DNA of 64,000 bases from Acidipila rosea (lineage in GTDB: Bacteria > Acidobacteriota > Terriglobia > Terriglobales > Acidobacteriaceae), in contig NZ_SMGK01000004.1 in the NCBI RefSeq assembly GCF_004339725.1, positions 186,001 through 250,000 on the forward strand. Reading direction: 5' to 3'. A model generated the notes under the pieces. That model ran no database searches, had not been told where the DNA came from, and saw nothing but the letters and a program-made list of their open reading frames with translations. This document shows, in pieces, positions 18,012 through 20,578 of the stretch. Position numbers and translations under genes: made by a program. Numbering within the stretch: position 1 is the stretch's first letter; every line of letters begins with the position of its first letter.

Positions 18012-18623
18012 ATGCCCTCCACCCGGCCCAGTGCAGACCAGGTCATGCAGCACCTCCTTGAAGGCAACCAGCGCTTCCAGGCTGGTGAAATCGTCCACCC
18101 CCGCCGCACCCCCGAGGACTTCCGCGCTCTCGCCGCCGGCCAGAGCCCTCTCGCCGTCATCATCGGCTGCGCCGATTCCCGCGTCACCCCCGAGATTCTC
18201 TTCGACTGCGGCATCGGCGAGCTCTTCGTCGTCCGCATCGCCGGCAACTACATCGCCGGAGCCGGAGCCTCCGTCAAAGGCAGCGTCGAGTTTGCCGTCG
18301 CTGAGCTTGGCGTCCCGCTCATTATGGTTCTCGGTCACAGCCAGTGCGGAGCCATCAAGGCCGCCATCCAGCACATCGACGACCGCGCCGCTCTGCCCGG
18401 CGCCCTCAACGACCTCGTCAACAGCATCAAGCCCGCCGTCACCGCCAGCGTCAACCGCCCCGGCGAACTCCTCGATAACGCCATCGCCGCCAACGTCCGG
18501 CGCGGCGTCACCCGTCTCAGGAGCCTGCGCCCCGTCGTCGCCCCGGCGCTCAAAGAGGGAAGAGTCAAGATCGTCGGCTGCACCTACGACATTGAAACCG
18601 GCAAGGTTACGGTCCTCGCCTAG
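18012..18623 (+). CDS. beta-class carbonic anhydrase
   Basis: A 203-residue enzyme interconverting CO2 and bicarbonate. The zinc site is complete: Cys53, Asp55 and Arg57 in GCADSRVTPE, His109 and Cys112 in GHSQCGAIKA. It starts MPSTRPSADQVMQHLLEGNQRF, with no signal peptide, so it is cytosolic, and lies in the prokaryotic beta-CA branch. A GAGG lies 8 nt before the ATG. The gene sits between the structured leader and the sulfite reductase leader; the intrinsic terminator at 18799-18840 separates it from the next gene. Confidence 0.95.
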   Translation: MPSTRPSADQVMQHLLEGNQRFQAGEIVHPRRTPEDFRALAAGQSPLAVIIGCADSRVTPEILFDCGIGELFVVRIAGNYIAGAGASVKGSVEFAVAELGVPLIMVLGHSQCGAIKAAIQHIDDRAALPGALNDLVNSIKPAVTASVNRPGELLDNAIAANVRRGVTRLRSLRPVVAPALKEGRVKIVGCTYDIETGKVTVLA

Positions 18624-18686
18624 CCTGGTCTTGCTTGGCGGGGCTTAGGTTGACCCATCCTCCCGCTTCCAGCTATCCTGATCAGG

Positions 18687-18767
18687 ATGCACTGCTACTC
18701 CATCCCGTTCATGCCATTCGCATGTTGTCCCGCGCCAGCAGGACTTCGGGATGAGACTGCCTCATAG
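18687..18767 (+). CDS. putative cysteine leader peptide (26 aa)
   Basis: The ORF ATG at 18687 to TAG at 18765 encodes 26 residues with Cys at positions 3, 13 and 14; the pair at 13-14 is followed by Pro and overlaps the control region. The following gene makes sulfide for cysteine, so ribosome stalling at Cys codons when cysteinyl-tRNA is short is a coherent mechanism. The start is uncertain: the only SD-like AGG directly abuts the ATG, and an internal ATG at 18711 is possible. Polycysteine leader peptides are known upstream of sulfur genes in actinobacteria; its presence here is read from sequence alone. Confidence 0.6.
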   Translation: MHCYSIPFMPFACCPAPAGLRDETAS

Positions 18768-18798
18768 CCACAGCATCTAGGTCTTAGTCTTAACTCAG

Positions 18799-18840
18799 AA
18801 GCCCGCACCTCAGCCGCATCCTGCTGAAGCGGGCTTTTCT
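18799..18840 (+). terminator. intrinsic terminator in the sulfite reductase leader (putative attenuator)
   Basis: AAGCCCGC (18799-18806) pairs with GCGGGCTT (18829-18836), followed by TTCT. An inner stem CAGC/GCTG (18811-18814 with 18823-18826) extends it. Transcription into the sulfite reductase gene must pass it. Loop bases 18819-18826 (TCCTGCTG) are perfectly complementary to 18736-18743 in the leader ORF just after its Cys-Cys codons, and 18816-18823 to 18683-18690 at the leader start. Either pairing would open the terminator stem's interior. Confidence 0.75.
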
Positions 18841-18874
18841 ATTTCCACCCCTGTTTTCTCTTTTAAGGAGCCAC

Positions 18875-20578
18875 ATGCCGGAAGCCACCGCAGTCGCCGT
18901 CAAAGAAACCAAAGCGCAGAAGATGGAGCGCCTCAAGCGCGAGAAAAATCCCTGGCAGGTCTTTGACGAGGTACGCCAGTTCGCCCGCGAAGGCCGCGCC
19001 AGCGTCGTCCCCGAGTGGGCTTCCGCCTACTTCAAGTGGTGGGGCGTCTATACCCAGGGCGACGGCGTGGGTGCAGTCGGCGGCAAGGGCGGCGAGGGCC
19101 TCGCCAGCGAGTACTTCATGATGCGCATCGGCATCCCCAACGGAATCCTGCGCGCCGACCAGCTCCGCGTCATCGCCGATCTCACCCGCCGCCACGCGCG
19201 CAACCTCGCCGACATCACCGTCCGCCAGAACATCCAGCTCCACTGGCTCACCATCGACGCCCTGCCTGAGATCGTCGATACCCTCGACCGCATCGGCCTT
19301 TCGCCCCGCGGCGCCTGCGGCGACGTAGTCCGCAACGTCACTGGCTGCCCCCTCGCCGGCATCGCTCACGACGAGCTGATTGACGCCTCCCCGCTCGCCC
19401 TTGAGATCTCCCGCACCCTCATCGGCAACGATGAGTTCTACAACCTTCCCCGCAAGTTCAAGATCAGCGTCACCGGCTGCTCCAGCTGGTGCAGCTACCC
19501 TGAGATCAACGACATCGCCCTCACCGCCGCACGCCGCGATGGGGAAGTGGGCTACATCCTCCGCGTCGGCGGCGGCCTTTCCAACGAGCCGCACCTCGCC
19601 GTCAAGCTCAACGCCTTCATCCGTCCCGATCAGGCTCTCGCCACCGTCCGCACCATCGCTGAAATCTTCCGCGATCAGCAGGGCCTCCGCGAGAGCCGCG
19701 ACCGCGCCCGGCTCAAGTACCTTTTCATGCGCGAGGGCTGGACCGCCGAAACCTTCCTCGCTGAGATCGAGTCCCGCATGCAGACCACCTTCGATCCGGC
19801 GCCTCCCGAGCAGATCCCCGACGACGTCTACCGTGACCACGTCGGCATCCACGCCCAGCAGCAGCCCGGCCTCTGCTACGTCGGCGCGTCCGTCCTCCGC
19901 GGACGCCTCACCGGTGACCAGCTCGCCGCCGCCGCCGAGCTCGCAGAGCGCTACGGCACCGGCGACCTCCGCGCCACCGTCATGCAGAATCTCATCTTCG
20001 TCAACATCCCCACCGCCCGCGCCGGGGAGCTCGTCCGCGAGCTCGGCGACCTCGGCCTTCGCGTCGAGGGCAGCCAGTTCTGGCGCGGAGCCATCGCCTG
20101 CACCGGCACTGAGTTCTGCAAGCTCGCCATTACTGAGACCAAGGGCTTCACCCGCTGGCTCGTCGACGAACTCGAAGAGCGCGTCCCCGGCTTCGACCAG
20201 CAGCTCAAGCTCCACGTCACCGGATGCCCCAACGGCTGCGGCCAGCACTGGATCGCCGACATCGGCCTCGAAGGCAAAAAAATCAAGCACGAGGGCAGGA
20301 TGGTCGATGCCTACTACTTCTGCGTCGGAGGAGCTGTCGGCCGCCACGCCGCCACCGCCCGCCCCGTAGGCTACCGCGTCCCCGCCACTGAGGTTCCGGC
20401 CTCCATCGCGCGCCTGCTCACGCAGTACCAGGGCCAGCGCCACGTCGGCGAAGACCTGCGCGCCTACTTCTCCCGCCACACCGTTGAGGAACTACGAGCC
20501 CAGTTCGCCGGCGAGGTGCTCACCGCCGTCGCCACCCGCGATCAGCCCCAGGGCCGCGCGCCTCAGGCGGCCGACTGA
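18875..20578 (+). CDS. ferredoxin-dependent sulfite (or nitrite) reductase hemoprotein
   Basis: A 567-residue reductase of the NirA/SirA type that carries out six-electron reduction to sulfide or ammonia. The siroheme-[4Fe-4S] ligands are intact: Cys409 and Cys415 (ACTGTEFCK), Cys451 and Cys455 (GCPNGCGQ). Two repeated halves are visible, with VRQNIQLHWL and VMQNLIFVNI as the substrate-side arginine-region and its counterpart. The Cys-rich leader peptide in front argues for a sulfur role, so sulfite is favoured over nitrite; the two cannot be separated by motifs alone. AAGGAG precedes the ATG. An intrinsic terminator follows. Confidence 0.93.
   Translation: MPEATAVAVKETKAQKMERLKREKNPWQVFDEVRQFAREGRASVVPEWASAYFKWWGVYTQGDGVGAVGGKGGEGLASEYFMMRIGIPNGILRADQLRVIADLTRRHARNLADITVRQNIQLHWLTIDALPEIVDTLDRIGLSPRGACGDVVRNVTGCPLAGIAHDELIDASPLALEISRTLIGNDEFYNLPRKFKISVTGCSSWCSYPEINDIALTAARRDGEVGYILRVGGGLSNEPHLAVKLNAFIRPDQALATVRTIAEIFRDQQGLRESRDRARLKYLFMREGWTAETFLAEIESRMQTTFDPAPPEQIPDDVYRDHVGIHAQQQPGLCYVGASVLRGRLTGDQLAAAAELAERYGTGDLRATVMQNLIFVNIPTARAGELVRELGDLGLRVEGSQFWRGAIACTGTEFCKLAITETKGFTRWLVDELEERVPGFDQQLKLHVTGCPNGCGQHWIADIGLEGKKIKHEGRMVDAYYFCVGGAVGRHAATARPVGYRVPATEVPASIARLLTQYQGQRHVGEDLRAYFSRHTVEELRAQFAGEVLTAVATRDQPQGRAPQAAD

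Follow-up and report, generated by a model that had tools for sequence, protein, structure and literature searches.

A putative cysteine-responsive transcription attenuator with a leaderless leader ORF upstream of the sulfite reductase gene sirA in Acidobacteriota

We observed that the sulfite reductase gene sirA of Acidipila rosea is preceded by a short ORF with clustered Cys codons and by an intrinsic terminator, and that both elements are conserved in front of orthologous genes. The locus is very probably a ribosome-mediated transcription attenuator that responds to cysteine and whose leader ORF is leaderless. A preliminary description had proposed that a Cys leader and a terminator together form a cysteine attenuator of sulfite reductase, and the conservation of the Cys ORF and terminator in orthologues upholds this core claim. 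All features of the locus described below lie on the forward (+) strand of the window, the 64,000-nucleotide stretch of A. rosea DNA that was analysed.

The leader-peptide ORF (MHCYSIPFMPFACCPAPAGLRDETAS; 18687–18767) begins with an ATG at 18687 and comprises 26 codons, its TAG stop codon ending at 18767. Direct reading of the sequence confirmed the ORF and its Cys codons at the positions first claimed for them: codon 3 (TGC, 18693–18695) and codons 13 and 14 (TGT TGT, 18723–18728), the latter pair being the predicted stall site. When the 445 candidate Cys ORFs of the 64-kb window were scored by promoter spacing and Cys content, this leader came out on top. Its promoter consists of a −35 hexamer, TTGACC (18650–18655), and a −10 hexamer, TATCCT (18674–18679), separated by an 18-nt spacer, and transcription is predicted to start at 18687 or 1 nt 5′ of it. 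Because 7 nt separate TTGACC-18-TATCCT from the ATG, the leader mRNA would be leaderless, with the ATG at its 5′ end. A missing Shine-Dalgarno sequence (SD) is therefore to be expected, and the weak SD that had been the main doubt about the leader no longer counts against it; among relatives, SD-like motifs were found in 1% of the leaders of a 167-locus set.

Next to this leader, the controlled gene (18875–20578, 567 aa, with an AAGGAG Shine-Dalgarno sequence at 18865–18870) encodes a ferredoxin-type sulfite reductase of the SirA/NirA family. NirA-family models match the product with scores below their curated cut-offs, and among proteins of solved structure its best relative is M. tuberculosis NirA (1zj8, E 4e-85). 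Alignment with that protein showed that the equivalents of Tyr69 and Cys161 are conserved (WWGVYTQ, GACGD); these two residues form the cross-link of M. tuberculosis NirA, a sulfite reductase. In several relatives cysH adjoins sirA, and these neighbours agree with a predicted role in sulfite reduction. The A. rosea genome also holds a sirA paralogue of 35% identity (G000:C2, L103), which showed no convincing leader.

To describe conservation of the leader, we used 167 orthologous sirA/nirA loci of the same family, in which leaders were selected without use of the promoter, avoiding circularity. A Cys-rich leader ORF was present in 133 of these loci, giving 120 distinct peptides. TGY codons made up 20% of codons in frame, compared to 9% and 3% in the other two frames of the 120 leaders, and this in-frame excess is in line with the predicted stall site at codons 13 and 14. 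The promoter recurred at a fixed distance: TAnnnT preceded the ATG at 6 nt in 35% and at 7 nt in 28% of leaders (63% in total), with 0–7% at other spacings, and TTG[AC] started 35–37 nt before the ATG in 69% of the 120 distinct leaders, the position at which the window carries its −35 hexamer. In a stricter test, which demanded the promoter together with at least three Cys including CC or CxC, 55 of 88 orthologous upstream regions passed, compared to 2/88 when the reverse strand was tested and a mean of 0.6/88 for dinucleotide shuffles. All P values count related genomes as independent. The leader was also found in 60 of 78 named genomes, a set that partly overlaps with the 88 regions and includes Terracidiphilus, Granulicella, Edaphobacter and Silvibacterium. 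The peptides span a range from MHGCPCCRRCMPLRAHR to the poly-Cys MSGSQNFRQMCRCTCCCCCCCCAFVSSDARGLLT, and are about 12 to 36 codons long; they retain the Cys cluster while the remainder drifts. Four sirA loci without a leader of their own (L014, L016, L023 and L110) have cysH directly upstream, and the genome of L014 has cysD immediately ahead of cysH in the same orientation. No leader was seen at distant sirA homologues outside the family.

Three contigs labelled Opitutia, Verrucomicrobia and Methylomirabilota (L107, L152 and L172) carried sirA genes 60–73% identical to that of the window, and L107 and L152 also had Cys leaders of the acidobacterial type. Their sequences suggest either misassigned labels of metagenome-assembled genomes or transfer.

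The second element, an intrinsic terminator (AGCCCGCACCTCAGC...GCTGAAGCGGGCT followed by TTTCTATT; 18800–18843), lies before the sulfite reductase gene, where the preliminary description had located it. Its hairpin (18800–18835, −19.7 kcal/mol) can be extended to 18797–18838, is followed by a T-run and stands 39 nt before the ATG at 18875. A beta-type carbonic anhydrase gene (18012–18623) lies on the same strand directly upstream of the attenuator, so the hairpin might simply mark the 3′ end of that gene, with the Cys ORF arising by chance. We consider this reading very unlikely and synteny disfavours it: carbonic anhydrase adjoins sirA in 1 of 110 loci, that of this genome, the leader and terminator occur with sirA in different gene backgrounds too, and the leader promoter sits between the carbonic anhydrase gene and the terminator. 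Since the carbonic anhydrase neighbour is peculiar to this genome, the leader and terminator travel with sirA. In support of a terminator that belongs to the leader, a hairpin with a T-tract followed the leader in 68 of 70 loci whose leaders had been picked without regard to a terminator. In the 67 loci that were analysed further, the terminator begins 18–53 nt after the leader stop codon.

Next, we computed the structures that the leader RNA of the window could adopt. The RNA folds at z = −2.43, and its elements can be assigned to four regions as in the trp attenuator. With no ribosome present, the minimum free energy fold predicts a 7-bp protector stem between CATCCCG (18701–18707, the 5′ arm in region 1) and CGGGATG (18747–18753, the 3′ arm within region 2), with Cys codons 13 and 14 inside it; a CCGG...CCGG counterpart of this stem is visible in relatives. 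Region 2 (18738–18759) is predicted to pair with region 3 (18785–18806), which extends into the terminator 5′ arm, in a duplex of −21.9 kcal/mol (z −2.6 relative to shuffled sequences; rank of its own partner 0.01). With a ribosome placed at Cys13, the same pairing forms in the computed fold of the stalled fragment (−24.3 kcal/mol) and occupies GAAGCC..GC of the terminator 5′ arm. Once the ribosome is placed at the stop codon, the terminator (region 3:4) alone remains in the computed fold of the window.

A different pair of interactions had been put forward originally, in which the terminator loop pairs with the leader. Both 8-bp complements are indeed present, one between 18736–18743 (CAGCAGGA) and 18819–18826 (TCCTGCTG) and the other between 18683–18690 (CAGGATGC) and 18816–18823 (GCATCCTG), but neither is conserved in relatives, of which 4% have a leader complement to the terminator loop of at least 8 bp. 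Because the second pairing starts 4 nt 5′ of the predicted transcription start, half of 18683–18690 would lie outside the RNA. We therefore rejected the loop complements as the working switch. The folding models instead support a trp-like set of 1:2, 2:3 and 3:4 pairings, in which the region 2:3 antiterminator would compete for the terminator 5′ arm.

This arrangement is retained among the relatives. The modelled region 2:3 duplex had a mean energy of −22.2 kcal/mol with its own partner, compared to −17.1 kcal/mol when partners were swapped between loci, and a mean z of −2.1 against shuffled region 2. We then modelled sequestration of the terminator 5′ arm on the RNA just before the terminator 3′ arm is made, with the ribosome halted on the cluster's first Cys codon. 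Sequestration averaged 0.66 in the stalled state, compared to 0.20 with the ribosome at the stop codon and 0.46 in shuffled controls, and was higher in the stalled than in the stop state in 64 of the 67 loci. For the window, the corresponding values were 0.39, 0.11 and 0.47. In this model, the window copy is thus a weak member of the group, with three Cys codons and a stalled-state sequestration above that of the stop state but not above the shuffled control. The group as a whole accordingly gives a stronger signal for mutually exclusive structures than the window does by itself, and the argument is carried by the relatives rather than by this copy alone.

RNAalifold predicted a consensus antiterminator for each of clades A1, A2 and C, in which the 2:3 pairing is conserved; clade A was aligned and folded as subgroups (MAFFT/RNAalifold) because its spacer length varies. 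The three clade antiterminators pair ACTTTGAGTGAAT with ATTCACACAAAG, CTTGTGGG with CCCATAAG, and CTGGCGCGGGG with CCCACCGCCAG, so their sequences differ while the arrangement is the same. Conserved Cys codons and covarying stems had been named as the check on the attenuator: the Cys ORF is kept across orthologues and the 2:3 pairing in these clades, but compensatory changes are few, with one pair per clade.

The genome of A. rosea contains a second Cys leader, MLHSLSNLACRMPRRCCCGCCAFQRG, which together with a terminator precedes the cysD operon (L102:4131-4211; contig C2 near 115.6 kb). We found a Cys leader before cysD in 26 of 30 relatives, most of them with a terminator. Cys leaders and terminators also precede cysD at L280, L282 and L285, from two other families of the phylum, and on the basis of these loci the device may be phylum-wide. 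In the A. rosea genome, which was searched by pattern, hisI-hisG is preceded by a leaderless His leader, MQIRTHHRHHHHHHVTNVSADPFGLR, and a terminator (L098; contig C5 near 127.5 kb, reverse strand), and a His leader was present at hisI in 28 of 30 relatives (L242–L271). Since Cys and His leaders both recur, leaderless attenuators seem to be in general use among these bacteria. No Rfam family scored above its gathering score at the sirA locus, the His leader or the cysD leader, and a known riboswitch or Rfam leader at sirA was rejected on this ground.

Some upstream ORFs that contain Cys codons are known to sense copper (CruR/DUF2946 type), and by analogy the Cys-rich peptide could be a nascent arrest peptide that senses copper, zinc or redox state rather than Cys-tRNA. 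We regard this as extremely improbable. Beyond their Cys runs the leader peptides diverge freely, in length as well as sequence, the controlled genes belong to sulfate assimilation (sirA, cysD and cysH), and a His-codon leader before hisI in the same genomes follows the pattern of a tRNA-charging attenuator.

Taken as an attenuator that responds to Cys-tRNA, the locus would work as follows. Transcription would start at the leader ATG, and a 70S ribosome would load on the 5′ end once it has emerged. With ample Cys-tRNA, the ribosome would reach the stop codon and cover region 2, the 3:4 terminator would form, and RNA polymerase would stop before sirA. When Cys-tRNA is scarce, the ribosome would stall at Cys13-Cys14 and leave region 2 downstream free to pair with region 3, holding the terminator 5′ arm, so that transcription would enter sirA. 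In RNA that is not translated, region 2 would mostly be kept in the protector stem 1:2.

The design can be compared with several known systems. With the trp, his and leu attenuators of Proteobacteria and the trp attenuator of Actinobacteria it shares regulatory codons, the predicted 1:2, 2:3 and 3:4 pairings and the intrinsic terminator; as in amino-acid attenuators generally, a leader ORF enriched in the relevant codon and an intrinsic terminator precede a gene of the matching pathway, here cysteine biosynthesis (sirA; cysD, cysH). It differs from the classical trp, his and leu cases in its cysteine codons, a rare specificity, in its predicted leaderless start and in its occurrence in Acidobacteriota. 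A leaderless attenuator leader is also found in rhizobial trpL (rnTrpL), whose RNA begins with the ATG of the leader ORF; that system is alphaproteobacterial and responds to tryptophan, and its peptide and sRNA also act in trans (PMC7298713).

Another close likeness is to Actinobacteria, for which cys leaders were predicted by Seliverstov et al. 2005, with no conserved intrinsic terminator (PMC1262725). Leaderless polycysteine sORF attenuators were described in mycobacteria (Canestrari et al. 2020, as cited in PMC9094748, PMC9031893 and PMC13236596), and as far as these citing accounts go, actinobacterial Cys leaders have been predicted and partly tested, without terminators. According to the same accounts, the mycobacterial sORFs share with the acidobacterial leaders a short leaderless ORF, Cys runs, a place upstream of sulfur-assimilation genes and cysteine as the proposed signal. 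For the acidobacterial leaders, it is the promoter position that points to an ORF at the mRNA 5′ end. Apart from Cys runs, we noted no likeness between the leader peptides of the two phyla.

The Cys leader might act on translation or in the mycobacterial manner, with a stalled or terminating ribosome affecting the gene start and the hairpin being secondary. The mycobacterial leaders, in the accounts cited above, work without conserved intrinsic terminators, and some acidobacterial cysD leaders with Cys runs lack a convincing one (L273, L275–L277 and L287–L290, mostly of one genus, g35); here the same control might work at the level of translation. For sirA we hold such a mode to be very unlikely, because nearly every locus has a hairpin with T-tract and because the predicted 2:3 pairing would take up the terminator 5′ arm. 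Unlike the actinobacterial cys leaders, transcription attenuation at sirA would draw on a terminator and a competing antiterminator, both conserved, in another phylum. We lean towards the view that Acidobacteriota control several amino-acid pathways, cysteine and histidine at the least, by one broad class of leaderless transcription attenuators of an origin independent from the actinobacterial polycysteine leaders.

Premature terminators had previously been computed for Acidobacteria, as in the present work, and a function had been assigned to hardly any of them (Naville and Gautheret 2010; PMC2965389); a text search of that paper found no cysteine leader. Our search of the open-access literature, with most subscription papers outside it, turned up neither a cysteine nor a histidine leader reported for Acidobacteriota. 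The parts are known from other phyla, and what is new is the combination of a leaderless Cys leader with an intrinsic terminator, in Acidobacteriota.

In conclusion, for a major soil phylum these results assign attenuators a probable role and describe a putative cysteine attenuator with all the classical RNA parts, including the terminator missing from actinobacterial cys leaders. They define a testable regulon, sirA and the cysD operon, and provide a set of homologues ready for a covariance model, of which Rfam holds none. If the proposed mechanism is true, promoter placement makes the leader ATG the first transcribed codon and couples ribosome loading with RNA polymerase from the very start of the transcript, and leaderless start codons are suggested as a normal route to attenuators in Acidobacteriota. 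Sulfur-assimilation enzymes would then most likely be made only when cysteine is short, through a device that recurs across the family and beyond.
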